64,000 bases of DNA from contig KV919020.1 of NCBI GenBank assembly GCA_002049455.2, positions 1 through 64,000 of the forward strand, in the 5' to 3' direction. The DNA is from Porphyra umbilicalis. Taxonomy: Eukaryota > Rhodophyta > Bangiophyceae > Bangiales > Bangiaceae. Below the pieces are notes generated by a model. That model did no database searches, was not told the origin of the DNA, and saw only the letters and a list, made by a program, of their open reading frames with translations. The translations under genes and the position numbers were made by a program. This document shows positions 13,341 through 62,300 of the stretch, piece by piece; position 1 is the stretch's first letter, and each line of letters opens with the position of its first letter.

Positions 13341-13556
13341 GGCTTGCTTCCTGGCGTTGGGAGACAAGCCAAGCCCCAGACTCTTGCTTTGTAGCGTTGA
13401 GGGACTGGCAGTGAGCGAAAAGATATTGACTTTGGGCACCGTGTGGACTCGTGGCGGTGGTACTGTACATACTGCAGCATAAGCTGACGGTGCATTGCTC
13501 GAGTCTTGTTGCTCTTCGAGAGACACTCCGGACCTTCTCGGATACGAATATACTAC
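13341..13556. other. Short intergenic region before the tRNA
   Basis: No gene seen. Less GC-rich than the protease gene; contains the 3' flank of the protease and the upstream region of the tRNA. Confidence 0.4.
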
Positions 13557-13562
13557 TATAAA
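13557..13562 (+). promoter_or_regulatory. TATA-like element upstream of tRNA-Ser
   Basis: TATAAA sits 33-38 nt upstream of the predicted first tRNA base in an otherwise AT-rich patch. Because the internal B box is split by an intron (see the tRNA), an upstream TATA element would be a plausible aid to polymerase III recruitment. The function is inferred from position. Confidence 0.4.
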
Positions 13563-13614
13563 CTATTTGAGACCTGCAGGCACAACGAGCACGAGTGTCT
13601 GTGGCCGAGTGGTT

Positions 13615-13638
13615 CCAGAGATTTAGCCTCGAACACGC
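13615..13638 (+). other. D-loop intron of tRNA-Ser(AGA)
   Basis: Removing these 24 nt joins GTGGTT to AAGGC, giving the canonical serine D-loop. Weak bulge-helix-bulge-like pairing is possible (GTG at 13609-13611 with CAC at 13634-13636; inner GAG/CTC stem). The exact boundaries are uncertain by a few nucleotides. Confidence 0.72.
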
Positions 13639-13686
13639 AAGGCGATCGACTAGAAATTGATTTCGGTTCCCGAGCGCAGGTTCGAA

Positions 13687-13712
13687 CGACAGATCCCGCT
13701 CTGACCCGAATG
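13687..13712 (+). other. T-loop intron of tRNA-Ser(AGA) with bulge-helix-bulge motif
   Basis: The junctions form a textbook bulge-helix-bulge. The exon-exon stem is GCAGG/CCTGC. The central 4-bp helix is TTCG (13681-13684) with CGAA (13707-13710). The 5' bulge is AAC (13685-13687), the 3' bulge TGT (13711-13713). An inner intron stem is CAGA/TCTG (13690-13693/13700-13703). Cutting after the second base of each bulge removes 26 nt and leaves T-loop TTCGAAT, restoring a consensus B box. Confidence 0.82.
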
Positions 13713-13734
13713 TCCTGCCAGACACGCTCAGCTG

Positions 13735-13739
13735 TTTTT
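13735..13739 (+). terminator. RNA polymerase III T-run terminator
   Basis: Five T residues begin 9 nt after the tRNA discriminator base, the usual polymerase III stop signal. Confidence 0.7.
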
Positions 13740-14215
13740 GCTTCTGCTCGGGTTGGGTGACACAGGCAAGCGCTGGATAGCTACAAGCAACGCAAACAAC
13801 GGCACACCATGCGTATGTATACCATGAAAGACTGCTCATTGACGCTTACGCTCATTTCAACAATTTGCCACGGGCATCCGTCCCAGTTGGTCTGCGCTTA
13901 TGGCCGCGGAACGCGAAGCGCGCTCTCGCGGGAGACACCCCCCTGAAGCCCTCTCCAGGACGGCACCATGGCTGCGACGGGCGCTATGGTTCTTTACAAA
14001 AAGCGCGACAGCGCTATCCTCCCCCCACTGTGACATGCACCCATCGACGACAGGGACAGGGGGGCATCTACAAAAATTGAGCGAGCATGAAATGGTCGGA
14101 CGTCCCAGAGGAAAAAAAAAGCACCTCCCCGTACGACAACGGCCCAGCCCGACAGTCCCTCCAAGTGCCCACCAGATGGTCACCAAACCCACCCGCCGCC
14201 CCCGCAGGCGCCTGT
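13740..14215. other. Intergenic region between tRNA and NPL4
   Basis: About 475 bp with no recognisable gene or repeat. It includes the 3' flank of the convergent NPL4 gene. Confidence 0.45.
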
Positions 14216-27916: not shown

Positions 27917-30674
27917 ATGTCGGGCGCCGCGCGCATGACTGCAACACCGGGCACCCGGCCCCTTCCTCCTTACCCCTGCCTGTACTGTCCCTACGCATTC
28001 TACCATGAGATGCGACTCGCCAGGCACATGCAAGCTTGCCATCCGGGAAGAAACCGTCTGCTCGGAATGACGGGGATCGCCGACGCGGGTGGCCACTCCA
28101 GCGCTGGTGGGGCAGCCCAGGCGGCGCGGCGTCCTGCTACCAGGGCTTTTTCTTTGGCTGGCGGTGCCAGTGGTTCGGTGGCCGGCGCTTCTGGCGCTGA
28201 AGACCACAACGAGGGGCGACGCCAAGGTCATGGCGGTGCAGCTGCACGCAGATGAGGCGCTCGTATCGTGGTCGGGCGCCCACCACATCTTCCCAGTGAG
28301 AGTCAAGTATGTCAACGTCCTCGATGGTGGCGGTCGCTGGGTAACCGTCGGGTACATCCAACACGTTCCAAAGGCTGTGACGCAGACAGCTGTTGGGCGT
28401 CTTGCCGTGAGCGATGTACGCAATGACCTGCTGCAACGCTGCCTTGCAATGACGCTTAAGAAGCTGCTCATTGCAAGCGAGACGGATGTGTCATCAGATG
28501 TGGCTAGCTACGGGACGGTGCGGCTATTCCCGCGCATCACTGGTCTGGTGATGGACCACTTTGAAGAGCGCAGTGTGCTTGCGCTAATGGGCAACCAGGC
28601 CAACTTCTACTGTACGCAGTGCTTAGTGAGTCGGGCGGCGGCACCTGGGGGACAACGCGAGGACCAGTGGCCCAGGCGGGACGTCATTACGACGTTGGAG
28701 GCGCAGTTGACGGCAGCGGCTGTCCGAATCGAGGACCCCCGTGCGAGCCGTCGCAAGCACCTCAGCGAGACGCACAGCGCGCTGGCATTCGTGCCTGTCC
28801 TGGGCGCTATGCATGGGCTCAGCACGGGAAACCACTACCTCTACGAAGCTGTTGCGTTTGATCTGTTGCATGTGTGGAAGCTTGGCGTGTTGCGCAACCT
28901 GGCGCAGACCGTGACATCCTTCTTGCGCGCTGTCTGCGGCACCGGCGCCGCCGTTCAGGGCCCTGTGGCGATGACGCTCGACGCCATCAACATGCGTGGC
29001 TTCCATCTTGGTCGCCTTTGCCGCTCCACGCGCGCTTCTCCGGGGTAAGGTTGACCTCGCTTCTCGAACACTGCAGAAGGGGGGCACGGATATTCGTGTG
29101 TGGCCGAGCGGGATGGCACTTTTCCTATTCATGATGCGCTGGTGTCTGGTGGCAGATAACCCTGCAATGCGTGGACCGCTCCGGCACTGACCGCGACCTC
29201 ACATGTCTTTCTGCTCTTTTCTTTTGCCCTCACTTTGCACAGCTGCTTTGTCCCCATGTCAGAGAAGCAGGCCACAATGACTGGAAGGGAGTGGCGGCGC
29301 TTCTGCTCCTACTGGCCATTTATGGTCGCGGGTGCCGTCGGTCCCGCCCGCATGTCCGCGGTTGAAGGCGACCACGAGGTGACAGACGACGCGTCTAACC
29401 AGGCCGCCGGCGATGCAGCGACAGCTGAGGGCGTGGCTGATGTGGAGTCGGAGCGATATGCTGACGGATGGGGAGCTGTCGACCACGATGACCTCGCCGT
29501 CGCGGAGGAGGTCGTTTGCGCCCTTCCCGGCCCCAACCTCGCGAGCACAGCGAAGTACAAGCAGGTGTTCGAGAGCTTGCCCATCGAAGACGCAGTGCTG
29601 AACTTGTTTTCTGAGGCGGCTGCCCTCAACAACGTCCTCTTTGGCGACAACATGGCCAACACGAACCGAATCTCCCCACTCGACATCAAGGAAATGGAGG
29701 AGGATGCCGATTTCTTGACGGTCACCTTTATGCAGTGCCTCTACGGTCCATTGCACACGACCAAGGTTCATCGGCTTGCCCACCATCTTGGGGAGGAGCT
29801 CCGCAACCGCGGTAACTTCTCGGAAGGTGACACGTCGACAAACGAGAAGCTTCACGGCGCCTGCAAGCGGATGTGTCGCCGCAGTAGCAAGCGCGGACCC
29901 CGCATCTCCCTGCAAATGATGCGATGCGAAGAGACTCAGTCTCATGTGCCCAGAGAGCTCGCGGAGGCGGACGCGGCCGAGCTCCCTGTGACTGAGAATG
30001 AAGAAGGTGTTGGGGACGGCGGCAACGAGAGCGCAATGGAGAAGGCCGCTGACGAGGTGCTTGGAGTGCTGGGACGTGGCAAGAGCGCTGCTATTGGGGA
30101 CCTCAAGCTTCTTTGGGGCTTGGACAAGCTGGGCAAGGTGCTGGGGCTTCCTGACAGTGACCCGGTAACCATGCATCAGACGGCACGCATCGACGTCAGC
30201 TTCAGCTGGGATGGGCCGGGCCGCATGCAGTACGTGCGCGCGACCGAGAACTTCCAGAAAGCGCCCTGGTTCTCGTTCGTATGGTGCAAGTGCATGGACA
30301 ACACGAAGCGGTGGGGGCAGGTGCGCCTGGTGTTGAGCTCGACGGGTATCTTGCGCCGCTGCTGTGTCGTCTTGCAGCGCATGCGGCAGGTACAGCCGCG
30401 TGACCAGTGCGTCCTGACAACCTACGGCTGCAAGCGTTTGGCGTGGTCTTTTGGGTTGTGACGCAGCCAGTGGCCTTCCCTCGAGGTCGTTGATATTGAG
30501 GACATCGTTCGCTTGGAGGACGTTCAAGTTGACTGGCAGGAGCTGGCAAGCCGGGCGGGGCTAAAGGCTGACCCTGGGGTTCTGGAGAAGACTGTGGGTG
30601 GCAGGCGGGCTGCCCGCTTCTTCACCAACGTTTTCTACTCGTGGACGTCGCGGGACTTGGTGCCTAGGCTGTGA
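27917..30674 (+). pseudogene. Plavaka/Tnp2-like transposase with C2H2 finger, disrupted
   Basis: Likely start ATG 27917: MSGAARMTATPG then a C2H2 finger (Cys21, Cys24, His37, His42) in CLYCPYAFYHEMRLARHMQACH-like spacing. About 100 residues later, in another frame, comes the catalytic-region block AVQLHADEALVSWSGAHHIFPV (about 28226) and WVTVGYIQHVPKAV, followed by FYCTQCLV (about 28607) and LYEAVAFDLLHVWKLGVLRNLAQ (about 28850). The frame shifts again near 29040 into KVDLASRTLQKGGTDIRVWPSG, then resumes after a possible intron ending TTTGCACAG at about 29241. The conserved end TTKVHRLAHHLGEELRNRGNF and DTSTNEKLHGACK is at 29755-29875. An in-frame TGA at 30459-30461 interrupts a tail that otherwise continues to 30672-30674. 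Frame breaks plus a premature stop suggest an inactive copy, although unrecognised introns could explain some. Confidence 0.65.
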
Positions 30675-43074: not shown

Positions 43075-44041
43075 GAAAAGTTGACGGAGACGAACTTCCA
43101 CGAGTGGCGCCAGCGGATCAAGATGATCCTGGCGCTGCGCGATCTGGACGACATGCTTGACGAAGACGGCAAGCCGACGGACGCGGAGGACCGCGAGTTG
43201 GCGGTGTGGAAGCGTCGAGACACGAAGGCGAGCGCCATCATCGGGCTCACCCTTGGGTCTGAGCAGCTCGAGCACGTTTCGGGGTGCAAGACGACGGCGT
43301 AAATGTGGTCGTCCCTGCAAGGCGTCTTCCAGCGCAAGAGTTTGATGAACAAGATAAGATGAAGGCGCGACGCGAATTCTACACCGTCGCGATGAACGTC
43401 GGCGAGGGCATGCTGGGCTAAATCAACCGCGTGCGCAACCTCGGCGAGAACCTCAAGGCCATGGGCGGCGAGGTGACGGAGATGGATGTCGCCATGAGCG
43501 TTCTCAACGGGCTGACGTCAAAGTATGAGAACCTGCTGGTGGCTCTAGACGCCAAGGGTGAGAACGAGCTAAGCCTCGACTTTGTCAAGAGCCGCTTGCT
43601 TCAGGAGGAGCGGCGTCAGGCGGACAAGTCACCGGCGATCAAGCGCATTGGTGACATGGCACTCGTCGGCGCCAACTATGGAGGTCAAGGCCGCCGTGGT
43701 GACCTTTCCAAGATCGAGTGCTACTACTGCCACAAGTTTGGGCACATCGCTCATGATTACCCAGAGCTCAAGGCCAAGAAGCAGAGACAGGACAAGGTGG
43801 CCGCGATTGCGGCTGATGACGGTAGCGACAGCGACGACGCCATCTGTCTCGTTGGAAACGTGGATGACAACGATGACATTTCCAAGTCGTGGCTTGTCGA
43901 CTCTGCGGCGTCTGCACACATGTGCTGGATGCGTGCGTGTTTCGATGACTACAAGACGACCACGGGACGGAGCGTCACGATGGGTGACAAGGGGTCCGTG
44001 GCCACGGCGGGCGTCGGAACCGTCGTCCTCAACGTCATCGT
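43075..44041 (+). pseudogene. Copia gag and protease, broken
   Basis: Gag begins EKLTETNFHEWRQRIKM (43075 onward) with the usual LEHVSGCKTTA block. It is interrupted by a TAA at 43300-43302, a frameshift near 43350 and a TAA within LG-INRVRNL at about 43420. The zinc knuckle CYYCHKFGHIAHDYP (about 43720-43763) has Tyr in place of the last Cys, so it cannot bind zinc normally. The protease site reads VDSAASAHM instead of the usual DSGAS. The frame continues to VGTVVLNVI, where the element is broken (about 44041). Confidence 0.85.
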
Positions 44042-46413
44042 TCAAAGCACAGCTGCACACCGGCAACAAGATCAAGGTGCTCCGGTCCGACAACGGCGGC
44101 GAGTACGTGTCGTCCGCATTCAAGGCACTTCACGATGAGAACGGCACAACGCACCAGACGACGGTGCCCGACACGCCGCAGCAGAACGGGGTTGCTGAGC
44201 GACTCAACCGAGTTCTCGTGGAGATGGCACGCACCATGATGCGACACAAGGACGTCGACCAGGATCTTTGGGCGGATGCCATCAAGACGGCGGTCTACAT
44301 CAAGAACCGCGTCACCAGCCGTGCGCTTCCCGTAGGCAAGACGCCTCATGAGCTATGGACCGGGAACAAGCCCGACGTAAGCCACATGCGGGTGTTTGGG
44401 TCAACATGCTGGGTGGTACTGCACAAGAGCCACGTCGATGGCAAGTTCGGAGACAAGGCGGCAAAGGGCATTTTCGTGGGCTATTCCGACGGCAGCAAGG
44501 CGTACAAGGTCATCTCGAAGACGGCAAGGTCGTCAAGGCGCGAAGCGTCGTTTTCTCCGAGAACAACTCAAGCAAGGTTGCAGATGTTCCAGAGGACTCA
44601 CCCGTGGACGAAGTCGTGGAAGGCGAGACGGGCTAGGATGCCGGCAGCGACGACCAAGACATCGACGCTGAAGACGACCAAGACGTCGACGCTGAAGATG
44701 ACGGCGGAGACGACCAGCAAGAAGATGGCTCGGACAAAACCGGCAGACGACAATCAAGGTTCTGCCGGATGTCAAGACACGCTGCGTCGGAGCGGCAGAT
44801 CGCCGAGGCCGCCGGTTGAGTACTGGCGTCCAGTGAGCCTCGTTGCTCACGAGGCTCCCATGATGTATGGGCAAGCAGCTCAAGGACAAGAGTCGACCAA
44901 GTGGCGGGCCGCAATGGACCAGGAGATGGACTCTATCCGCAAGAACAAGACATGGCGTTTGACGGATCGCCCGGTCGGCCGACGCGTGCTCAAGGGCAAG
45001 TGGGTTTACAAGGTCAAGGACGAGCTGGACAAGGTCGGGAACAACACGACGCGGCACAAGGCGCGCCTGTGCTTTATGGGCAATCGGCAGATCAAGGGGC
45101 TTGACTTCAACGAGACGTTTGCGCCGGTGGCCAGGTTCACTACCATCCGATGCATCCTGGCGATGACGGCGGCGAACGGGTGGGAGCTGCATCAGATGGA
45201 CGTCAAGACGGCCTTCCTGAACGGCGACCTTGACGAGGAGGTCTGCATGGAGCAGCCGGAGGGATACGTCGATCCCACGTATCCGGACAAGGTGTGCCGT
45301 CTTCTCCAAGCGCTGTATGGGCTTAAGCAAGCCCCCAAGATGTGGTACGCCAAGCTCGACGCCTTCCTCAAGTCGCAAGAGTTTGACAACATCGACCCGG
45401 ATGCCTGCCTCTACCTCCAGATTGATGACGGTGAGATCATCATCGTCCTGGTGTACGTCGACGATCTTCTTCTGGTCGGGTCAAGCATGGAGGCAATTAA
45501 CAAAATCAAGAAGGCGCTTCGCAAGCGCTTCGAGATGAAGGACCTGGGCGAGGCCAAGGTCATCCTCGGGCTAGAGATCAGCCGTGACAAGACGTTGGGC
45601 ACCCTCAAGCTGTCGCAGGGCAAGTACGCGGGAAAAGTGCTCGAGAAGTTCGGTATGGCGGAGTGCAACCCGATCGCGACACCGTTGGAGGTCGGGCTGC
45701 AGCTGGCTAAGTTGGAGAAGAGCGACGAGTCTCTTCCTTATCGCGAGGCCGTCGGAAGCCTGATGTACCTGATGGTCGGGACGCGTCCTGATCTCGCCTT
45801 TGCCGTCGGCAAGCTAAGCCGTTTCGTGTCGGGCTACGGGAAGGAGCACTGGGCGGCTGTGAAGCGCGTTCTCCGATATGTCAAGGGGTCTGTCGACAAC
45901 GGCCTGGTCTACAGCAAGTCCGCGTCGGGCATCCTCCAAGGTTTCAGCGATGCCGACTGGGCAGGTGACTACGAGACGCGGCGGTCTACGACGGGCTTCA
46001 TGTTCATCTTTGGCGGGGCGGCCGTCAGCTGGGCTTCGAAGTTGTAAAAGACGGTGGCGCTATCTACCATGGAGACGGAGTACATGGCTTTTTGCGAGGC
46101 CAGCAAGGAAGCTGTTTCGCTCGACAAGCTCATCCAACGCGTCACCATGCTCGTGACGCAGTCGAACACCTTGGTTGGGCCGGTTAACATCAAGGTCGAC
46201 AACAGCGGCTGCATCGACTTCGCCAAGAATCCCGTCGAGCACAAGCGCACCAAGCACATCGACATTCGCTACCACTTTGTGCGGGATGCGATCACGACGG
46301 ACAAGGTCATCCTCGCGCACTGCCCAACGGACGAGATGGCGGCAGACCCGATGACGAAGGGGCTCGCCAAGGTCAAGCACGACAAGCATGTCAAGACGAT
46401 GGGGATGTGTTGA
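44042..46413 (+). pseudogene. Copia integrase C-half, reverse transcriptase and RNase H
   Basis: The frame opens with KIKVLRSDNGGEYVSSAF (second catalytic Asp region of integrase) and PQQNGVAERLNR (Glu), ELWTGNKPDVSHMRVFG, then the reverse transcriptase: KARLCFMGNRQIKGLDFNE, WELHQMDVKTAFLNGDL, QPEGYVDP, LYGLKQAPKMWY and the catalytic YVDD at about 45456. RNase H follows with GFSDADWAGDYETRRSTTG. A TAA at 46045-46047 falls in SWASKL-KTVALSTMETEYMA, a likely Gln-to-stop change. The same frame then runs on to a TGA at 46411-46413. The integrase N-terminal half is missing from its normal place. Confidence 0.9.
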
Positions 46414-49206: not shown

Positions 49207-50490
49207 CTACTCTCCAATTCGACAAGCAATTGGACTACTGTCAGCATGCCGACCAGTAGCCCCCCTCAGAAAATGTGGCACCCCAAAGTCCCCCCCCCGC
49301 CAAGCCAACGCGTCAGCCGACGTCGAGCCCAGGTCAGCGGTCGCATCCAACGGGCGCTCCGGGGTGGCGCAAGCGGCGTAACCGCCAGCGACCGCCCACG
49401 TAAGGGAACGCCAGAGCATGACCGAGACGTCCAACAGAAGCCCCGCACGAACCGCCGCAAGCTGCGGACCAGCAAGCGCGGCCTTCAGCCACGCGTCGGT
49501 CGCGGGACCAACGCGGCCCAGCGCCTCCCATACCAGAGGGGTGAAGGCGTGGGGGGGGTCCGTCGTGGGCAATGCCGGCACGTAGGCGGCCCGCTTGGCC
49601 GCCTCGCGCTCGGCCGCCGCAACCGCCCGCAGGGGCGACGTGCGGACCCGCGCCGCGACCGCGTCGGGCCACGGCCACGCGACCGAAACGTCACACCAGG
49701 TGACAGCGGCCGTGGCCGCCGCGGTCGCGCGCACGTCCGGCCGCAGGTCCCCACCAGTCCCCTCGAGGCCGACCTCCACGCCCACCTCCCGCCACGCCGG
49801 GGCGCGGCGCAGCGCTGCCGCCATGAGCGCCACAATGTGGTGGTGCACGGCGGTGCGCCGCGCCACCTGGGCGCGGCAGGCGGAGAGGAAGTGTCGGCCA
49901 GCCGGGTCGGCCGCAGCCCCGCAGGCGCAGCGCGGGCGCGGAGGGTCCGGGCGCGGGGGGGCGCCCAGCCAGAGGCGCGCCGCCACGCGCATGGCCGAGC
50001 CGGGGATGTGCCCCCGGCCCCGCGGTCGGACGGGACCGCGGTGAGCCACAGGGCAGCCCGTCCGCCCTGTACCGCCGCCAGCCCCGTCCGCGCCCACCCC
50101 GACAGGCCGGCGTACAGGCGGGCACGCCGAGCGGCGTGGGCGGGGAGGGAGAGCGCCCGCTGCGTGACGGCGGCAGGCGCCGACAGCAGCCGTCGCCACG
50201 TCAGCGCCGCGGGCAGCCCCCCCCCGGTATGGCCGAGGGCCTGTTCTTGGTGGGGGGGGCGGTCCGCCGCGTCCGCGCGGGCGGCAGCAGCCGAGGCAGC
50301 AGGGGCGGAGCTGGCGCAGCCGCGGGGCGCTGGCGCCCACAGCGCCCCCGATGGAGGCGCGGCGGAGTGCGCCGCCACGGCGGCGACCAGGGCGAGTAGG
50401 TCCGTGCGCCAGGAGGCGGCAGCCGCGGGCAGCGGCGTCGGCACGCCTGCGGCGGCGGGCCGAACGGGCGGCGGACCGGGGTCGGCCCAC
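49207..50490 (-). pseudogene. C-terminal zinc knuckle and restriction-like endonuclease domain of the non-LTR element
   Basis: Open frame ending in TAG at 49207. Motifs in order: CACG...GRHFLSAC (about 49940-49885), a Cys/Cys/His/Cys knuckle; RRTAVHHHIVALM (about 49860-49820); LRPDVRA (about 49752-49735); and VTWCDVSVAWPWP (about 49700-49665), the spaced PD and D residues of PD-(D/E)XK-like endonucleases of R2-type elements; then EREAAKRAAYVPALP. The domain would nick target DNA for target-primed reverse transcription. A basic residue expected two positions after the Asp is not evident, so activity is uncertain. The upstream part of the frame merges into the repeat spacer. Confidence 0.7.
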
Positions 50491-50499
50491 TCAGGCCAC

Positions 50500-53400
50500 G
50501 CGTCCGGTGGCGGCGTCCCCTCTGGGCCATCCGGCCCCACCCATACGGTGCGGGTGGCGGCGGCCGCCGGTGCCGCTGCCGCCGCCCCCGCCGCCACCTC
50601 TGCCGCCGCCGCAACGCGCGGCGACCGACGCGGCTGCGTCACCCGGTCGCCGTCTGGCCGGGGCAGGACCGGGGGCGGGGGCGGCGAGCGGTCATCAGCA
50701 GACGCTGAGTCCCAAGGCGCCGCCGCCGCCGCCTCAGCCACCACCGCAGCCGCCGCCGCCGCCACCGTCACCGCGGGCGACGCCCTTGCCGGCGGCGCCG
50801 TCGCCAGGGGCGCCACTGACGCCACCGTCGCCGGCGCCGTCGCCCGCGGCGCCGCCGACGCCATCGCCGTCGCCGCCGTCGACGGCGGCGGCGGCGCCGC
50901 CGCTACTGCGTTTGCCGCCGACGCCGCCGACGCCGCCGCGGGCGACGCCACCGCCGGCGACGCCAGCGTCGGCGAAGGCGCCGGCGGCACGGATGGCGAC
51001 ACGACCAACGCCGCCGCCGCCGCCGCCCGCCGCGGCGGGCGACACCAGCGCCTTTGGCGCCGTCGCCGGCGGCGCCGTCGCCGGCGCGACCGCATCCGCC
51101 ATTGTCACCGCTGCCGCAGCAGCCGGCGACGCCACCGCCGGTGGCGCCATCGTCGGCGGCGCCAGAAGCGGCGCGACTGCCGATACAACCCCCGCCGCCG
51201 TCGACGCCGCCGACGCCGCCGCGGGCGACGCCACCGCCGGCGACGCCATCGTCGGCGAAGCCGACGGCCGCACTGTTGACGAGACGACCAACGCCGCCGC
51301 CGCCGCCGCCGCCGCGGCGGGCGACGCCGTTGCCTTTGGCGCCGTGGCCGGCGGCGCTGTCGCTGCCGCGACCACATCCGCCGCCGCCGCCGCCGCCGCG
51401 GCCGCGGGTGACGCCCCGCCGGTGGCGCCATCATCGGCGGCGCCAGCGGCGCCGTGGCGGCCGACACAACCACCGCCGCCGTCGACGCCGCCGACGCCGC
51501 CGCGGGCGACGCCGCTGCCGGCGGCGCCGTCGCCGGCCAAGCCGCTGGCGGTGCCGTTGTCGACACGTCAACTGCCGCCGCCGCCGCCGCCGCCGCTGCG
51601 GGCGCCGTCACCGCCGCCGGCGCGGTCTCCGGCGGCGCCGTCGCCGCCGCTGATGCTTCCGCGGCCGCCGCCGCCGCCGCAGCGGCGGGCAACGCCACCG
51701 CCGGCGGCACTGTCACCGGCGCCCCCGGTGGCGCGGCGGCCGACACGACCAACGCCACCGTTGGTGCCGCCGCCACCGTCGCGGCCGACGCAACCGCCGG
51801 CGCTGCCGTCGCCGGCGGCGCCGCTGGCGCCACTTCGGCCGACGCGACCGCCGCCGCCGCCGCCGCCTTCGCCACCGGCGCCAACGCTTGCGCCGGCACC
51901 ACGCCGCCTCGTCCGACAACAGGCGCGGCTGCGCCGTGCGCACAGCGTGCGAGAGTAGGGGGGGGGCGGGGGCAGGAGGAAGGGGGGGGGGGGGAAGCTC
52001 GGCCGTCGCGGCGCCGCCGGGCGCCGCGTGCAGCACACACACGTCGGCGGCCGCGCACGGCGACGGCGGTGCCCCCGCCGCAGCGTCCGCCGCGAGCGCC
52101 GGCGCCAAGGCCGGTGCTGCCGCCGCGTTGTACGCGGACGGGGCGTGCCCGCCCAGGCGCCGCGGGAGTAAGCGCCCGGCCGACGTAACAGAAGGGGCGG
52201 GGGGGGGGGGGGGGGCTCAAACGCGGCGGCGGCGGCTGCCGTCGCCGACCACCGCCCCACAACCGCGGGCGCAGCAACAGCGAGAACGGCGTCCGCGGCC
52301 GGTCCGCCGCCGGCACGAGGCGCGGCTGCCGCGGGCTCCGCCAGCGCCAGAGCGCTGGCGGCAGCGCCGGCGACGCCGCCGGTCGTGGGGGGCACCCGGG
52401 CCGCGGCGGCGTCGGCGGCGCCGGCCGGCGGCGCAACAGCCCCGGAAACACCGAAACTGCCCGCACAGGGCGGTGGCGCCGCCGGCGTAACCGCCCGGCT
52501 GGCAGGCGGCCGCTGATTGGGCGGCCGCCGCCGCGATGCCGGACGACGCTGACGTCGTCCGAACCATCGACGGTCGGCGGCCACGCCGCGGCCGGACAAG
52601 TGACCAGCGCCGACGGGGCGGCCGGCCAAAGGCGCCCCCGCGCCGCTGGTCGCGGCCCCAGGCGCCGCAACCGCCACCGCCGCCACCGCCGCCGCCGGCG
52701 CCGGCGCCGGCGCCGCCGCCGCTGTCGCGGGCGACGCCACCGCCGGCGGCGTCGTCGCCGGCGGCGCCGGCGGCCCCACTGCTGCCGATGTGACAACCGC
52801 CACCGCCGGCGCCGCCGCCGGCGGCGCGGGCGACGCCACCGCCTGCGGTGCCTGAACCGGCGCTGGCGGGGGCGCCGCCCGCGCCGGCGGCACCGCCGCC
52901 GCTGCCGTCGCCGCGGAGACGCCAACGCCGGCGGCGCCGGCGCCGGCGGTGCCGCAGCCGTCGCTGCTGTCGACGCGACCGCCGCCGCCGTCGCGGCCGC
53001 CGCCCCCGCGGGCGTCGCCGTGGCTGGCGGCGCCATCGCCGGCAGCGCGCCGCCAAGCCGCCCACGCCGTGCGCCGCGGCGTCGCCGCACACGTTGTCGT
53101 CGAGCAACCCTGCCGGGCCCGCCGCGACGGGCGGCGTGCACGCCGCTGCCCAGGCGCACGCCGGCAGCGCGGCCGTGCCACCGCCTGCTGCGGCGGTTGC
53201 GCCGGCGGCCACGCGAGGCGCCTCTTCCGCCGCCGTCGTGCATCCGGTCCCCGCCGCCGCCACAGCTTGGACAGCCGCCACCCGACCGCCCGGACCAAAG
53301 TCGTCCCGGACCGCAACGCCGCAGGGCCGGCCGCGCGGACCGCGGGGTTGGCGGGGGGGGGGGGGGGGGCAGGGGAAGAGGCGGCGTCGCGCCAACCGGC

Positions 53401-53990
53401 GCGCCGACAGCGGTTGTCGGCAGGCTTGCCGGGCGCCGGGGTCCACCGGCGTCCAAGCGAGCCGAGGCTGCGGCGGCAGCCGCCCCGGGCGCCGGCCGCA
53501 CCACGAACGCCTCGGCGGGCACCGCCGGCAGCGCGCCGGTGGCTGACGCCCCGCCACAGAACCAGGGCGGCAGCGTGGCTGCGCCGCAGCAGAGTGATGG
53601 GCGGCTGTGGCCGCGGCGAGCCGGCCAGGCGGGCTTGAGAAGTCGGCCGTGGTGTCGACGGGGCGGGACGGTAACGCGGGGGCGGCGGCATCCCCGCCGC
53701 CTCGCCGAGAAGCAGCACCCGCCGGGAGACGCACTAGGGATGAGGGGGGGGGGGGGGGACGAGCGTACAGCGGCCCCGGCGGCGCCGGGCCGAGCCGCAG
53801 CAGAAGCAACAGGGGATGCGGGACCGGGCGACGGCCGCCGGCGCTGTGGGGGTGGGGGGTTTGGGGGGGGGGGTGGGGGAAGTTAGCAGACGACGGCAAG
53901 CGAAGCGCGCGCCCGATGCCGGCCGCCGCGATTTGTCGACGGCGGGCGGCCCAAAATCCATTGAATCACTGACCTCGCCCGCCGCCGTCG
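50500..53990 (-). repeat. Alanine-rich GC tandem repeats inside the non-LTR element
   Basis: About 3.4 kb of degenerate GCCGCCGACGCCGCC/GGCGACGCCACCGCC-type repeats with higher-order units of roughly 100-250 bp. On the minus strand they give Ala/Pro/Ser-rich frames (for example ASPAVASPAAASAAS, ATAPPATAPKAT). All six frames stay open for long stretches, so the encoded frame cannot be chosen by inspection. They separate the reverse transcriptase from the endonuclease. Confidence 0.8.
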
Positions 53991-56740
53991 GGGACGCCGC
54001 AGCGGCGGGGAGCGCGGCGGGGACGACTGGAAGCGCCGCGCCGCCGTTAGCCGCCCCCGACGACGCCCCCGGCGCGGCACAAAGGCGGCCACCCCGGGCG
54101 GGCGTGGGGGTGGTCTGGCGGCGGGGGGGGCGGACTGCGACCGCCGCCAGGGCGCAGCCGGTCCAAAGACGGCGGCGCGGGGCGCCGCCGGTGGGGGCGT
54201 CCCCGTCGAGCGCGGCGAGGGAGTCCGCAACCGCCGCAAGCACAGGCGAGTAGAGTCGCCCCGCGCGCAGCGCATCGACGCGGGACGCCAACGCCGCGGC
54301 GGGGACGACCGCCGTCCGACCCCCTATGCCCAGGCCGCCGTGCGACAGCGGCAGCGCCGCGCGGTCCAGGAGGGCGTCCACCGCCGCCGGGGGGTCGCGG
54401 GCGTCTGTGACGAGACGCCGCAGGGCGCCTTGGGCGGCACGGTCGACCGACGCCGCCAGCCGAGCGCCCCACACAAGCGGGAGGGCCCGCAGCCAATAGT
54501 TTGGCTGCGGGCCCGCGCACAGGCGTAGAAGCAAGAGCTGTGCCTGGAGCTCAGCGCGAGGGAGGTCGACAATGGCCGCCGTCAGACGGTCGTGATCGGC
54601 TGCCAACGTGTCGACCGCCGCCGCCACGAAGTCATCCGTTCCAAGAGGGATGGAAAACTGCCGAACACCTTCGGCATTCCACCGGGCCGGCCAACCGGCG
54701 GGGGCGGGCGCGCCGGTGGGGGACCACCCGGCGCACTTGTTGGTGCGAGCTCCGCATCCACCGCCGCGCCCGCCGCAGCCGCGGTCGTAAGCACCGCCGG
54801 CAGGTCCGCGAGCGCGGCGACGACGACGACGTCGTCGTGCACGGCGCGCACGACCGCCGTGGGGTGCGCGGCAGCCAGGCGCAGCACGGCGAGGTGCATC
54901 GCCGCGGCGTGGATAAGCGGGCCGAGCGGGTCGCCTTGCTGCACGCCCCGCTCGACCGCCAACCAACGCCGCGGACGCAGGCCGCCCGCGGCGCCCGGCG
55001 CGAGTCGCCGTCCGACCAACCGTACACGCGCGGCGGGGAGCACCCCGAGTAGATCGACGAGAGGTAGTGCCGCAGCAGGGGGAAGGCGCGCGTCAAATAC
55101 GCCACCGCCGCCGCGAGGGAAACGAGGTTGAAAGCGTTCTTAAAGTCAAGTTGCAGAAAGCGGCAAGCGGGTTGTGCACGAGTTCGGCGTTGACCTCGTG
55201 GACCACCCGCTCACAGGGGTTGGACACCCCCACCCCCATTTGCAGCGGCGCGAGTAAGCGCGCCGCCGCGGCGCGCACAGTGCCGGCAAGCGAAGAAGCG
55301 GCCAATTTCTCAGCACCTCAGGCATCCCAATAGGGCGCAGCCGGGGGAGACCGTCCACGTCAAGCCCCCCCGGCTTGCACAGCAGCAGCAAGTCCGCCCC
55401 CGCCAGCGCATGCGCCGCCAAGGGGGAACCAGACGCTCCGCCTCCTCGCCCGCAAGAAGACGACAACCCCAGCAAGCGCAGCCTGCCCCTCGTCCCCAAG
55501 GGCCCGCAGATGCTCCATGCGGAGGCCCGAGGGACCGGGGGCAGAGCCGCGCGGCGCGCGGCGGATGGCCTCGCCGACGGCCTCGCGGGGGAGCACCCGC
55601 GGCACGCCTGAGATGCGCCCGAAGTTGCCGGCCGCCGCCAATTCGGCGGGGAACGCCTCCTCGACAGACGCGAGGGAGGCGAGGCCCGGCCGGGCGGCGG
55701 GGAAAAGGCTACGCGCCTTGTCCCAAACCGCCGGCGTGCGGGGGGCTACCGGAGCGGCCGTCAGCGCGCGTGCGGCCGCACTCAGCCGGCCGGCACGAAC
55801 AAGGCGCAGGGCGCGCCGCTGCGCCGCCGTCACGCGTGCGGGCGTCCCGGGGGCGCCGCCTCCCGGGTCTTGGGGGGGGATCTTGTCCCGGCCCGTCCGG
55901 GGGCCGACCGCCACACGCCCGCGTCTCGATCCGCGAGCGCCGCGGCAAAATCGCCGTCAAAAATGGCGGCGGCGCGCGCCGCGTACGTCAGCGGCGCGTG
56001 CAAAGCCGCTCCGGCCGGGGCAGGGTGGTGCAGCAGGAGAGTAGGAAGAAGAAGAACCCACAGCCACGCGAGTGGCTGGTCGGGGGCGCGAAGCGCCCAC
56101 GCAAGAGCGTCGGCGCCCAGCAGCCGCCAGGCGCGGCGCAGAGCGGGGGGGGGCGAGGGAAGAGTGCGCGCCGACGACGCGACGAAAGGCGCCCAACCAT
56201 CCGCCGTTGCGGGGACGGCCGCCAAGAAGACGCGGCGCGCTCGCTCCCACGCCGCCCGATCCGACCCGAACAAATTCGGCGTTTCGGCGTGCGCGGACGC
56301 GTCCGCGCCCCCGCCGAGCCGGCGAGGGGGAACGGGGGCGCCCGCCGGCCGGGGTGCGGGGGCGGCAAGACGCAGGTTCCACCGCGGATTTGCCCGGCAA
56401 ACCGCTTCGTGCGCCACCAAGGGGAGCGACCCGTCCGCGGGCGTGCGGTGGGGAAGGGGGCGTCGCACCACCCACACCCCGCCAAGCCCAGATCAGCGAC
56501 CGTCGCCGCGGGCACGTCCGCAATGACGTGCGCGCGGCGAAGGTGCCCAGGCCGGGGGTGTCGCCGATGGCGGAGGGCAGCACGACGCCGCACGCGTCCA
56601 CCGGGCACACCGAGGGCGCGCCCGTGCGCGCTGGCGCGCCGACCTCAGCCCGCTCGCCCGCCGTAGGCCTGCAGCCGGGCGACCGGCTCCGCCAGGGGGC
56701 GGTCGGCGGGGGCAGCCGGCGCCGCAGCACGTCGATTCGG
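53990..56740 (-). pseudogene. Zinc-finger, pre-RT and reverse transcriptase region of the non-LTR element
   Basis: Read leftward. A zinc-finger-like VCPVDACGVVLP and AGCGWC...PFPHRTPADGS with LVAHEAVC (about 56620-56400), then a helical pre-RT domain (ALAWALRAPDQPLAWLWVLL, about 56100). The reverse transcriptase follows: IRRAPRGSAPGPSGLRMEHL (about 55580-55520), LRPIGMPEVLRKLA (about 55340-55300), a GVQQGDPLGPLIHA block (about 54950-54908), and catalytic AVHDDVVVVA (about 54845-54816), where His replaces the usual residue before DD. The thumb contains RQFSIPLGTDD and LPLSHGGLGIGGRTAVV (about 54350-54300). At least five frame changes occur across these motifs, mostly in GC runs. Confidence 0.8.
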
Positions 56741-56954
56741 CCGCGCCGCCATGGAAGGGGAGGGGCGGCGCGGGGGGGAGGAAGAAGCGGGAAGAGGGGT
56801 GGGTAGAAGCGGGGGAGGGGGGGGAGTGCAGCGGGGCAGAGGTGGGTTCCGAGGATCAGAAAAGCGCGCCGCGCCCGGCCAGCCGCCGCTCGGAGGGAGC
56901 GGCGGCGGGGGGGGGGGGGGAAGCGGATTTGTCACTCATTTCGCAGTTGCGTCG

Positions 56955-59249
56955 CTCACGTTAGGGATGAAAGGGCCGCCTCGCCCGCCGCGCCATCCCG
57001 GCCGGGTCCGACGGCCCCAGCGCAGCAGCGGCAGGGGTCAACGAGTCCCGCCGGGCCTCGGCGGCTGCCGCCGCAGCGGCCGCCACCGCGCGCGGGTGCG
57101 CGGCCGCGCCCTCCCCCACCAACAGCGGCGCCGGCGGGCGCCGCTGTCGCGCGGAAGCGCGCGAGGGGCGGGGGCGGAAAAGCAAGCCACCGCCCGGCAG
57201 GGGCACTGCAGCCGCCAGGGCGGTGGCGGCAAGCAACGACCGAGGAAGGTGGGGACGGACGGTGGAAGGGAGGGGGCGGCCGCCCCCTCCAAACCCGCCG
57301 GCTCAGGATCCCACCGCCGCCAGCGGTAGCGACCGCGGGGGTACACGGGGGCGCCACAAGGGCCGCCCAAGGCCCCCGCGGCGCGGCGGCGTCTCGTCCG
57401 CCCCGGTCACAGGGCAAGAACCGCCGCCGAGGGAGTTGCACGCGGCGACGCCGTCGGCCCAGCTGGGGCGGGTCGGCAGGCGGCCGCCGGCAGCAGGGGA
57501 AGCACGGTCCGCGCGAAGCGCGCACACCCGCCGTCGGGCATCCCCCACCAATGGGGAAGCCCACAACAGGTCCACGGCCGCCCGGGGAAGCATCGGAGCC
57601 CCCTCGCACCGGGGCGACCGAGCAGTCGGTCGGCGGCACGCACGCTCGCCAGAGGCGGAGCGCTGCCCGAACGAGCGCGCGCGCCGACGAACGAGGTGAG
57701 CGCGCCGACGCTGCCGGCGCCGCCGCGCCGCCAGGGTGACCGGTGGTCTCGGCGTGCGCCTGCCGCCCCCGCCAACCGCCGTGAAGTGGCGCCCCCGCCG
57801 GTCGTTCGGCACCCCCGCGGAAACGAGCAGCGGGGGTGGGCCGCGGCGTGGCGCGCGCAGCGGCCCGGTTGACGACGACGGCGGCGTGGGCCGGGGCACC
57901 CGTTTGGTCAGCGCACTGCGCGATTTGACCGCCAATATGCGCCCGAAGAGCAGCACGAAGGGGGGGAGGCATCGCCTCCCGCAACGCCAGCTGCTCCAAT
58001 TTGGCGCGCAGCCGGCGTTGGCAAAGCGCCACAGCCTCCGCCGCCGCGGCGGGCCCCGACAGCTGGGCACGCCGGCGGCTCCCCAAAAATTTGGGCGACC
58101 AGGGAACGTCCACCGCGACCTCCCACAGCACGCCAGCGAGGGAGGGATCGTCCAGGCCCGCCCGAAACGCCTCAGTTGCTGACGCCAGAAGCGTCACCGC
58201 CGCCGTCGCGCCGAAGCGGTCGACATCGACGACGGTGGCGGGGGCCACGCCCACGGCGTCCGCCACAAACCGGCGCAGGCTATGCGAGCGGGCGTCCCGA
58301 GAAACGCCCGCAACGTACAGCGTCTGCAGACCGGGTAGCGGGGAGCCGGCGTGTCGGGCACGCGTGAGCGCCGCGACAGCTGCGGCGGCTCGCGCTGGCC
58401 GGCCCGCCGTCCCGGCAGGAGACGAACGCCGCTCCGCGGCCGAGGAGGGCGCGCGAGGGGACGCATCTGCACCAGCGCGGCGAGGGGAGAGGGGCGCCCC
58501 GCCGCGGGGGGCGGCGGCAGAGCGCACCGGGGCAGGGTTCGGGGCCCCGCGGCCCCTGCGGCGTCGGCGCCGGGAGACGAGGGTCCACGCGCCAGCCCGA
58601 TCGCCATCCGCAGCCGCCAGAGCAGCCACCGCGGGGGGCGCACCGCTCGCCGCCGACGAAGAAGGCGCAGAACCCCGGCTGGGCGGGGACGGCCGTCGGT
58701 CACGGCGAAGACGATCCGCCCACGAGGCGATCGGGGGCAGCGTCGCGGCTGGACGCGGCGGGGGGGGGGAAGCGGGAAGGGGAGGGGGGCCGCGTCGCCC
58801 AGCAGGACCCCGCCCCGAGGAGACCCAGCAGTAGAAACGGCACCGACCGCCCGCCGCGCAGCGCCGGCCGTGCCGAGCACCGGGCGCCCGCCGCCACGGG
58901 CAGCGGGGGGGCGCAGCGGCGCCACGACACCGGGCGGGATCACACCCGCAAGGACCGGGGCGCGCACGAGACGTGGCGCAACCGCGGCGGGGGGGGGTGC
59001 AGAAAATTGTCGGGAGCAAGACGGACCGATTAGAGGCGCGCTAACGCGCGCCGACGAGTCCGCAGGCCCAAATTCGGCATTACAGCCGGCAAATGCAGCG
59101 CGGCCATTGGCCCGCACCACAGCCACCGCTGATTCAAACAGTAAGCAGGGATCATCAACCGGAAACCCGGCAATAAACGCGTTAACGGCGAGGGTGACGG
59201 CGCCCGCCAAAGCGGTCACCGCCTCCCCCCCCCCGATCGCGGACGACAT
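56955..59249 (-). pseudogene. ORF1-like region of the non-LTR element
   Basis: A likely start MSSAIGGGEAVTALAGAVTL lies at about 59249, after a C/G run. The frame moves to another register near 58980 and continues with a Pro/Arg-rich region, a compact segment LYVAGVSRDARSHSLRRFVA and VGVAPATVVDVDRFG (about 58320-58215) that could be an RNA-binding (RRM-like) fold, and DVPWSPKFLGSRRRAQLSG then LRAKLEQLALREAMP (about 58110-57960). The remainder is low-complexity. The role as nucleic-acid-binding ORF1 protein is inferred from position. Confidence 0.5.
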
Positions 59250-59337
59250 AGCGCCGACCAAGACCGGGGGGGGGGGAAGAAGGTCGTCGCAAGCACCCGT
59301 AAGAAAAAGAAAAACGAAAAACGTACCTCGCACGACA

Positions 59338-62300
59338 GCAAGCGCCGCGGCCGAGCGGCCGCAAGAATGCGGGCAAGTCGCGTTTTTGGTTTCTGTAGAC
59401 AGGTGGTGTCTACGGACTTGCGCGGGACGGCCGTGACGGCCCAATACACGGTGGCTGCGCGATTTGCCACGCTCACGGCAATGTGTCGACACGGTGCAAG
59501 CTGCACGACATGCAAGCGCCGCGGCCGAGCGGCCGCAAGAATGCGGGCAAGTCGCGTTTTTGGTTTCTGTAGACAGGTGGTGTCTACGGACTTGCGCGGG
59601 ACGGCCGTGACGGCCCAATACACGGTGGCTGCGCGATTTGCCACGCTCACGGCAATGTGTCGACACGGTGCAAGCTGCACGACATGCAAGCGCCGCGGCC
59701 GAGCGGCCGCAAGAATGCGGGCAAGTCGCGTTTTTGGTTTCTGTAGACAGGTGGTGTCTACGGACTTGCGCGGGACGGCCGTGACGGCCCAATACACGGT
59801 GGCTGCGCGATTTGCCACGCTCACGGCAATGTGTCGACACGGTGCAAGCTGCACGACATGCAAGCGCCGCGGCCGAGCGGCCGCAAGAATGCGGGCAAGT
59901 CGCGTTTTTGGTTTCTGTAGACAGGTGGTGTCTACGGACTTGCGCGGGACGGCCGTGACGGCCCAATACACGGTGGCTGCGCGATTTGCCACGCTCACGG
60001 CAATGTGTCGACACGGTGCAAGCTGCACGACATGCAAGCGCCGCGGCCGAGCGGCCGCAAGAATGCGGGCAAGTCGCGTTTTTGGTTTCTGTAGACAGGT
60101 GGTGTCTACGGACTTGCGCGGGACGGCCGTGACGGCCCAATACACGGTGGCTGCGCGATTTGCCACGCTCACGGCAATGTGTCGACACGGTGCAAGCTGC
60201 ACGACATGCAAGCGCCGCGGCCGAGCGGCCGCAAGAATGCGGGCAAGTCGCGTTTTTGGTTTCTGTAGACAGGTGGTGTCTACGGACTTGCGCGGGACGG
60301 CCGTGACGGCCCAATACACGGTGGCTGCGCGATTTGCCACGCTCACGGCAATGTGTCGACACGGTGCAAGCTGCACGACATGCAAGCGCCGCGGCCGAGC
60401 GGCCGCAAGAATGCGGGCAAGTCGCGTTTTTGGTTTCTGTAGACAGGTGGTGTCTACGGACTTGCGCGGGACGGCCGTGACGGCCCAATACACGGTGGCT
60501 GCGCGATTTGCCACGCTCACGGCAATGTGTCGACACGGTGCAAGCTGCACGACATGCAAGCGCCGCGGCCGAGCGGCCGCAAGAATGCGGGCAAGTCGCG
60601 TTTTTGGTTTCTGTAGACAGGTGGTGTCTACGGACTTGCGCGGGACGGCCGTGACGGCCCAATACACGGTGGCTGCGCGATTTGCCACGCTCACGGCAAT
60701 GTGTCGACACGGTGCAAGCTGCACGACATGCAAGCGCCGCGGCCGAGCGGCCGCAAGAATGCGGGCAAGTCGCGTTTTTGGTTTCTGTAGACAGGTGGTG
60801 TCTACGGACTTGCGCGGGACGGCCGTGACGGCCCAATACACGGTGGCTGCGCGATTTGCCACGCTCACGGCAATGTGTCGACACGGTGCAAGCTGCACGA
60901 CATGCAAGCGCCGCGGCCGAGCGGCCGCAAGAATGCGGGCAAGTCGCGTTTTTGGTTTCTGTAGACAGGTGGTGTCTACGGACTTGCGCGGGACGGCCGT
61001 GACGGCCCAATACACGGTGGCTGCGCGATTTGCCACGCTCACGGCAATGTGTCGACACGGTGCAAGCTGCACGACATGCAAGCGCCGCGGCCGAGCGGCC
61101 GCAAGAATGCGGGCAAGTCGCGTTTTTGGTTTCTGTAGACAGGTGGTGTCTACGGACTTGCGCGGGACGGCCGTGACGGCCCAATACACGGTGGCTGCGC
61201 GATTTGCCACGCTCACGGCAATGTGTCGACACGGTGCAAGCTGCACGACATGCAAGCGCCGCGGCCGAGCGGCCGCAAGAATGCGGGCAAGTCGCGTTTT
61301 TGGTTTCTGTAGACAGGTGGTGTCTACGGACTTGCGCGGGACGGCCGTGACGGCCCAATACACGGTGGCTGCGCGATTTGCCACGCTCACGGCAATGTGT
61401 CGACACGGTGCAAGCTGCACGACATGCAAGCGCCGCGGCCGAGCGGCCGCAAGAATGCGGGCAAGTCGCGTTTTTGGTTTCTGTAGACAGGTGGTGTCTA
61501 CGGACTTGCGCGGGACGGCCGTGACGGCCCAATACACGGTGGCTGCGCGATTTGCCACGCTCACGGCAATGTGTCGACACGGTGCAAGCTGCACGACATG
61601 CAAGCGCCGCGGCCGAGCGGCCGCAAGAATGCGGGCAAGTCGCGTTTTTGGTTTCTGTAGACAGGTGGTGTCTACGGACTTGCGCGGGACGGCCGTGACG
61701 GCCCAATACACGGTGGCTGCGCGATTTGCCACGCTCACGGCAATGTGTCGACACGGTGCAAGCTGCACGACATGCAAGCGCCGCGGCCGAGCGGCCGCAA
61801 GAATGCGGGCAAGTCGCGTTTTTGGTTTCTGTAGACAGGTGGTGTCTACGGACTTGCGCGGGACGGCCGTGACGGCCCAATACACGGTGGCTGCGCGATT
61901 TGCCACGCTCACGGCAATGTGTCGACACGGTGCAAGCTGCACGACATGCAAGCGCCGCGGCCGAGCGGCCGCAAGAATGCGGGCAAGTCGCGTTTTTGGT
62001 TTCTGTAGACAGGTGGTGTCTACGGACTTGCGCGGGACGGCCGTGACGGCCCAATACACGGTGGCTGCGCGATTTGCCACGCTCACGGCAATGTGTCGAC
62101 ACGGTGCAAGCTGCACGACATGCAAGCGCCGCGGCCGAGCGGCCGCAAGAATGCGGGCAAGTCGCGTTTTTGGTTTCTGTAGACAGGTGGTGTCTACGGA
62201 CTTGCGCGGGACGGCCGTGACGGCCCAATACACGGTGGCTGCGCGATTTGCCACGCTCACGGCAATGTGTCGACACGGTGCAAGCTGCACGACATGCAAG

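Follow-up and report, generated by a model that had tools for sequence, protein, structure and literature searches.

A tRNA-Ser(AGA) gene with probable ectopic introns in its D and T loops in the red alga Porphyra umbilicalis

Eukaryotic tRNA introns are normally found at one place, because the enzyme that removes them measures from the body of the tRNA. A short locus of the red alga Porphyra umbilicalis, lying in a stretch of 64,000 nucleotides (contig KV919020.1, positions 1 to 64,000; hereafter the window), raises the question of whether this rule is broken there, as an earlier note had read it as a tRNA-Ser(AGA) gene split in both the D loop and the T loop. Analysis of the window and of the assembly that contains it (83.8 Mb, 665 contigs, with the window on C260) indicates that the locus is very probably a nuclear gene for a functional tRNA-Ser(AGA), interrupted in each of the two loops by an ectopic intron of the type removed by tRNA splicing endonuclease.

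Anatomy and setting of the interrupted gene

The gene occupies positions 13595–13726 of the forward strand and measures 132 nt unspliced, or 82 nt once segments of 24 and 26 nt are taken out. Exon 1 (13595–13614) comprises the 5' acceptor strand, the 5' D stem and the 5' part of the D loop; it reads GTGTCTGTGGCCGAGTGGTT and is the same in two further copies of the gene on contigs C290 and C242. The D-loop intron (24 nt; 13615–13638) lies between GGTT and AAGGC of the D loop, at approximately position 20/21. Exon 2 (48 nt; 13639–13686) holds the 3' D stem, the anticodon arm (AGA), the variable arm, the 5' T stem and the T loop up to position 59, and is followed at site 59/60 by the T-loop intron (26 nt; 13687–13712). 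Exon 3 (14 nt; 13713–13726) begins with T60 and supplies the 3' T stem, the 3' acceptor strand and the discriminator G. Neither intron site of this gene is the canonical 37/38.

ARAGORN named the joined 82 nt as tRNA-Ser(aga) and made no tRNA call on the unspliced 132 nt, and the boundaries given in the earlier note proved exact. Its statement that the stems are good only after removal of the two segments also holds, with all 20 scored acceptor, D, anticodon and T pairs standard in an alignment of the spliced form. A search of positions 13400–13900 against Rfam at E ≤ 10 returned no family match, group I and other described introns included. Neither Rfam nor ARAGORN reported a tRNA in the raw window. 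Using a custom parser, which describes a cloverleaf with optional introns in the D, anticodon and T loops, the gene was the single match scoring at least 38 on both strands of the window (score 51.2), and three dinucleotide-shuffled copies of the window, also read on both strands, gave no match at that threshold. A first covariance model, built from the spliced forms of 20 nuclear tRNAs of this assembly with the window gene among them, found the gene as its sole window match at E ≤ 10 (29.5 bits) but placed the 3' end wrongly, at 13708. A second model, for which 65 unspliced matches, again including the window gene, served as the training set, placed it at exactly 13595–13726 (48.8 bits). ARAGORN and the shuffled controls are independent of the window gene, and the two covariance models are not. 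At the level of sequence, the coordinates and the exon and intron anatomy are confirmed and need no change.

Signals around the gene are consistent with transcription by RNA polymerase III. A run of five T residues on the forward strand (13735–13739) is a likely terminator, TATAAA at 13557–13562 (−38 to −33) is a possible upstream promoter element, and CAA at 13583–13585 (−12 to −10) is a weak initiation-like motif. Comparable signals recur in the genome: TTTT occurs within 60 nt downstream of 42/46 distinct tRNA genes against a background of 11–12%. Among the 43 tRNA genes with enough flank, a TATA-like motif is found at −50 to −15 in 24 (background 3–6%), and CAA is found at −18 to −1 in 23 (background 19–22%). 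The B box is interrupted by an intron at 59/60, which suggests that, if these genes are expressed, Pol III genes can tolerate such a split. The idea that an upstream TATA element compensates for the broken B box was dropped, as 7/11 genes with a T intron and 17/32 others carry one.

The gene is flanked by one frame with a trypsin match and another with an NPL4 match, and because of these neighbours it is most likely nuclear. The GC content of the window ranges from 0.59 to 0.82 per 2 kb. By comparison, a plastid-like contig of 185 kb is tRNA-rich, encodes a tmRNA and has 30% GC (18 stretches measured); its frames presumably resemble red algal plastid genes, including ilvB, argB, hisS, chlB and others. 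The available text of a survey of red algae gives genome sizes of 78–105 Mb for multicellular species and the highest GC3 in P. umbilicalis (PMC10496412). Elsewhere in the window, a frame at 43573–46044 that matches reverse transcriptase (RVT_2), integrase and a retroviral SH3-like domain has the appearance of a Copia-like element, and a weak match to a Plavaka transposase (E 0.0015, below the Pfam cut-off) was seen at 28071–29045. Furthermore, the region 50000–60000 has a very high GC content (0.70–0.82 per 2 kb) with a strong AT skew (+0.15 to +0.34).

Paralogs and uninterrupted relatives

Searching the assembly with the spliced sequence revealed the copies on C290 and C242, giving three Ser(AGA) genes in 83.8 Mb, each with introns at both sites. 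The D introns are 24, 23 and 23 nt long and the T introns 26, 23 and 21 nt. Pairwise exon identity is 80/82, 80/82 and 82/82, with two differences in total: one changes a G-T pair to a G-C pair and the other lies in the loop of the variable arm. The T introns and upstream flanks are about as similar to one another as shuffled sequences, the downstream flanks are slightly above the shuffled level in two of three pairs, and one pair of D introns is slightly alike (0.71 vs. 0.56 ± 0.05 shuffled). A pattern built on the anticodon and T arms of Ser(AGA) recovered the three known genes and one chance-like match (one match in the reversed control). No intact Ser(AGA) gene was found in the assembly by this pattern, which is blind to a changed anticodon arm, or by sequence search.

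These observations bear on the possibility that the locus is a decayed tRNA pseudogene, or a tRNA into which short segments were inserted, and that the genome has normal Ser(AGA) genes at other places. Small inserts in the D or T arm of single copies are usually taken as pseudogenes, according to the accessible part of one review (PMC4090602), and the gene is invisible to both ARAGORN and Rfam. However, every Ser(AGA) gene found carries both introns, the two exon differences are those described above, and identical sites are used in many other isoacceptors. Constraint does not appear relaxed, given that the exons are near-invariant against T introns and upstream flanks at the shuffled level. 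The earlier note had named intact Ser(AGA) genes elsewhere as the finding that would turn this locus into a pseudogene; none came to light by pattern or sequence search, and the pseudogene explanation, which the data contradict, is very improbable. In addition, if no intact copy exists and the introns were left in, the alga would be without a tRNA for UCU and UCC.

Copies that lack introns provide natural controls for the junctions. Lys(CTT) genes occur without introns (twice on C216 and once on C425), with a D intron (C163) and with D and anticodon introns (C85 and twice on C350), and their mature sequence is identical or near-identical among the versions with zero, one and two introns. Leu(CAG) is intact in two genes on C350 and carries T introns in two genes on C382. 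All four Ser(CGA) genes have an anticodon intron, and the copy on C60 alone has a D intron; the other three read GGTTAAGGC without interruption at the D-intron site. The T-intron site is likewise uninterrupted, as TTCGAATCC, in the Ser(CGA) genes and in two genes for Leu(CAG). The uninterrupted D arm (GGTTAAGGC) and T arm (GCAGGTTCGAATCCTGC) of Ser(CGA) are those of spliced Ser(AGA). The versions of Lys(CTT), Leu(CAG) and Ser(CGA) with and without introns therefore define the junctions.

The same comparison weighs on a further alternative, in which the mature tRNA would keep the inserts and its D and T loops would be enlarged by them. With no intact Ser(AGA) copy found, the DNA alone is compatible with retention for this isoacceptor. 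However, the intact copies of Lys(CTT) and Leu(CAG) give the same mature sequence as their interrupted counterparts, and exons are conserved where intron sequence is not. An additional 26 nt in the T loop should also disturb the contact between the D and T loops. Retention accordingly has a negligible probability, and excision of the two segments as introns is the preferred reading. The claim in the earlier note that the inserts are introns is borne out by the different sequences of introns at the same sites in the paralogs, by the intron-free arms of isoacceptors and by the pairing register described below. As copies with and without introns share the same mature sequence, the genome offers a natural system for studying the origin of tRNA introns and the effects of an apparent lack of the Sen15 subunit.

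Pairing at the predicted splice sites and candidate splicing enzymes

Archaeal tRNA introns are described, in the available text of one review, as forming a 4-bp helix with a 3-nt bulge on either side, in which the splice sites lie (PMC4090602). The earlier note had assigned such a bulge-helix-bulge motif to the T-loop intron, with a TTCG/CGAA helix and the bulges AAC and TGT. This motif is recovered when the cloverleaf is forced, with the exon strand TTCG at 13681–13684 and the intron strand CGAA at 13707–13710 forming 4/4 pairs, also at the register tested below. However, the unconstrained minimum is a different fold of about equal energy (−42.7 vs. −42.5 for the cloverleaf-forced fold, a gap of 0.2 kcal/mol), which differs on the variable-arm and T side. 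For the D intron, the proposed central helix joins the exon strand GTGG (13609–13612) to the intron strand ACAC (13633–13636), with 3/4 pairs in the window copy; all four strands lie on the forward strand.

A register test measured the pairing between a 4-nt exon segment that stops 2 nt short of the 5' splice site (b5 2) and a 4-nt intron segment that stops equally short of the 3' splice site (b3 2). At this register, D introns averaged 3.00/4 pairs, compared with 1.96 after shuffling (z 4.8, n = 24), T introns 2.94/4 against 1.60 (z 5.8, n = 17) and anticodon introns 2.33/4 against 1.58 (z 2.4, n = 9), where the z-scores overstate independence, as introns within one family are related. Averaging by family gave 3.11 against 1.97 for D introns (10 families) and 3.19 against 1.62 for T introns (9 families), and none of 5000 shuffles reached values as high. 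The D sample excludes second copies almost identical to the first (C4 and C350), the divergent Val gene of C4 and the Tyr gene of C308, which was found later; the T sample comprises all distinct T introns seen; and the anticodon sample omits Ala, Lys on C85 and Tyr. The test is a second look at the introns of an earlier best-helix test, with D boundaries set by hand; that test, which fixed no register, was weakly significant (Fisher p 0.03 for D and 0.007 for T).

In a looser count, full 4-bp helices were found in 17/24 D introns (7.3 shuffled) and 8/17 T introns (1.3 shuffled), and the anticodon introns, used as positive control, gave a non-significant 2/9 (P 0.23). High z values lie mostly along b5 + b3 = 4, that is, one helix, with a further off-line peak for T introns (b5 3, b3 5, z 4.7). 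Pairing of D introns was stronger with the exon loop of the same gene (3.0) than with differing loops (2.1), in family-specific combinations: GUGG with CCAC or UCAC in Ser, UUGG with CCAA or CCAG in Val, and GUCG with CGAU in Lys. T introns paired equally well with own and foreign loops (2.94 vs. 2.77), the exon loops being too similar for this control. Individual introns vary, as the T introns of the C290 and C242 Ser(AGA) genes form 2/4 pairs each at the register, and five Leu D introns form 1/4 at the exact register and 4/4 only if shifted. Across the intron set, and in the window T intron with its 4/4 pairs, the sequences are consistent with bulge-helix-bulge motifs that occur in strict and relaxed forms.

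Pfam searches of the assembly detected two catalytic endonuclease domains, nearest to solved Sen34 (E 3.7e-16) and solved Sen2 (E 2.5e-10), respectively, together with a Sen54 N-terminal domain (E 4e-11). An RtcB domain was found on C294 (E 2.3e-117), a contig assigned to the alga provisionally, as bacterial contamination may be present. Sen15 gave no match at E ≤ 10 in one six-frame Pfam search, and its absence is provisional, given that such a search can miss short, split or diverged genes.

The introns could also be real and yet be removed by another nuclease or by self-splicing. A well-formed central helix is missing from several of them, the C290 and C242 T introns for example, as such a route would allow. 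However, D, T and canonical anticodon introns have the register b5 2, b3 2 in common, and the domains of Sen2, Sen34 and Sen54 are present. Self-splicing introns, moreover, are far longer than 24 and 26 nt. This alternative is thus very improbable, and removal by tRNA splicing endonuclease is preferred. In the proposed mechanism, RNA polymerase III would transcribe the pre-tRNA using the T-run terminator and the TATA- and CAA-like upstream elements. The 3' end of each intron would then pair with the preceding exon loop to form the central helix, leaving both splice sites in bulges. An endonuclease of Sen2, Sen34 and Sen54 would read this local shape rather than the distance from the anticodon and cut both introns, after which an RtcB-type ligase may link the exons into the 82-nt tRNA. 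For transcription, excision and ligation in the cell, as for the order of the cuts and the agency of the three-subunit enzyme, we infer the process from the gene and domain content.

Ectopic introns across the genome and in other lineages

The window gene is one of many. D and/or T introns were found in 39/64 nuclear tRNA genes (33 parsed and 6 read by eye), a biased fraction, since three of the search patterns were built on chosen D arms, Rfam favours intact genes, and genes with a T intron alone are under-sampled. The 64 genes comprise 53 parsed and 11 read by eye (10 Ala and 1 Gly); besides the 39, eight have an anticodon intron only, 16 are intronless and one (C50) is unclear. Ectopic introns occur in Ser(AGA, CGA, TGA), Leu(AAG, TAG, TAA, CAG), Val(CAC, TAC), Lys(CTT, TTT), Cys(GCA), Asn(GTT), Arg(TCG), Tyr(GTA) and Ala(AGC, CGC). 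The most interrupted gene of the set, Ser(TGA) at C75:70905–71019, gave three introns on parsing (14 nt in the D loop, 10 nt in the anticodon loop and 10 nt in the T loop). Tyr(GTA) at C308:8907–9017, found by the parser, has D and anticodon introns, with an intact Val(AAC) gene at a distance of about 1 kb, and Ala(AGC) occurs with one or two introns. Canonical 37/38 introns are also present, for example in Ser(CGA), Ala(AGC) and Thr(TGT), and are likely cut by the same enzyme as the ectopic ones.

An Rfam tRNA search of the assembly gave 49 matches, 25 of them on the plastid-like contig. The gapped D-arm patterns returned 29, 21 and 23 rows against 3, 1 and 3 in reversed controls, rows that include plastid copies, intact genes and overlaps. 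When spliced, 33/33 parsed genes with ectopic introns were accepted by ARAGORN with the expected anticodon, a partly circular result in that the parser picked the joins, many with D loops one base shorter than at the window-gene join. Three members of the set of 64 are doubtful: the C50 gene, in which the anticodon arm is unclear, a diverged Val(CAC) at C4:227148, and Val(TAC) on C409, for which the covariance model favours another reading. The set leaves out a 5'-truncated Leu copy on C83, a weaker model match near C4:279496 that the parser rejected, an Rfam match without a parse (C60:46546), and organelle-like Leu and Ser on C115 and Glu on C10. The last of these are AT-rich tRNAs on nuclear-size contigs (C115:69079–69567 and C10:363557–364027), possibly nuclear organelle inserts or mis-joined contigs. 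Also left out are two similar intronless Thr(CGT)-like sequences (C62:242774–243247 and C77:242004–242477). Pattern matches on C25, C164 and C189 were inspected and attributed to chance, and those on C512 and C521 were assessed from the matched letters alone.

For tRNA-Ile, a single anticodon-arm pattern gave 37 rows against 36 in the reversed control, and inspection of five places yielded no tRNA. Near-identical matches to this pattern at C1:106320, C56:219400, C153:144630 and C193:127810 are not tRNAs and look like a dispersed repeat. In a default tRNAscan-SE survey of eight red algae, the available text reports tRNA-Ile in two unicellular species only (PMC10496412). Genes for Leu(AAG) and Val(CAC) are paired on opposite strands, with about 330 nt between them, at C34:390375–390893 and in a block on C4 (226723–227242 and the 279071 region), which seems duplicated and in which a Val copy has a diverged D arm.

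Introns of this kind are known from the red alga Cyanidioschyzon merolae. Reviews, in the parts available, list 20/21, 37/38 and 59/60 among its permuted-gene junctions (PMC3978253, PMC4090602, PMC4033280) and report Sen2, Sen34 and Sen54 and not Sen15 (PMC3978253, PMC4090602). To the extent that these sources describe it, C. merolae shares with P. umbilicalis D, anticodon and T-loop introns, several introns per gene, bulge-helix-bulge motifs, the same three sites and the same set of detected subunits. Features of the C. merolae type found here also include a non-canonical intron whose removal restores a standard tRNA. However, C. merolae is described as a unicellular alga of hot acid water with a 16.5-Mb genome, in contrast to the 83.8-Mb GC-rich genome studied here, in which multi-copy tRNA families hold intron-bearing and intron-free copies side by side, unlike in C. 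merolae. Permuted tRNA genes are a feature of C. merolae in the same descriptions, and the present genome was read for unpermuted genes only. Processing has been demonstrated on RNA in C. merolae, as the reviews relate, whereas here it is predicted from the DNA sequence.

The nucleomorph of the cryptophyte Guillardia theta, a nucleus of red-algal derivation, also has genes with as many as three short non-canonical introns, located in the D and T arms in the descriptions available, and their excision was confirmed by RT-PCR (Kawach et al. 2005, as cited in the accessible text of PMC4090602 and PMC3978253). It differs in that the insertions are 3–24 nt long, many without a defined bulge-helix-bulge, and in that it is a reduced remnant genome, unlike the genome examined here. 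Crenarchaeal multi-intron tRNAs share the bulge-helix-bulge with its 4-bp helix and 3-nt bulges, as well as sites 20/21 and 59/60, in the portion of the review available (PMC4090602), but belong to another domain of life with archaeal enzyme types.

On sequence evidence, P. umbilicalis thus appears as a new and extensive example of the known kind seen in C. merolae and the Guillardia nucleomorph. Among the titles and abstracts of the matches listed, with most subscription papers outside coverage, no prior description of ectopic nuclear tRNA introns in Porphyra, Pyropia or other non-cyanidiophyte red algae was found. The earlier note had proposed that the locus extends the phenomenon of multiple ectopic introns; it does so to a large GC-rich genome, but the extension stays inside the red algae and reaches no distant lineage, because the host belongs to the phylum of C. 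merolae. With this narrowing, the earlier interpretation is supported as far as the sequence reaches.

The interrupted genes, 39/64 of those read, suggest that exceptions to the one-place rule reach well past a single minute extremophile and the reduced nucleomorphs, and point to splicing machinery of unusual flexibility. A broader proposal is offered tentatively, with somewhat less than even confidence: in large-genome, probably multicellular red algae, an endonuclease lacking Sen15 may read the local bulge-helix-bulge shape at approximately 20/21, 37/38 and 59/60, and introns at these sites may be gained and lost within living tRNA families, as in Lys(CTT) with zero, one or two, Ala(AGC) with one or two and Ser(TGA) with three. 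This state might then date back to the ancestor of red algae and have given rise to the cryptophyte nucleomorph introns, rather than being a by-product of genome reduction or of life in hot springs. A practical consequence concerns annotation: run with default settings on 31 unspliced loci, ARAGORN made four calls, one with the right anticodon, so that 30/31 were missed or misnamed.
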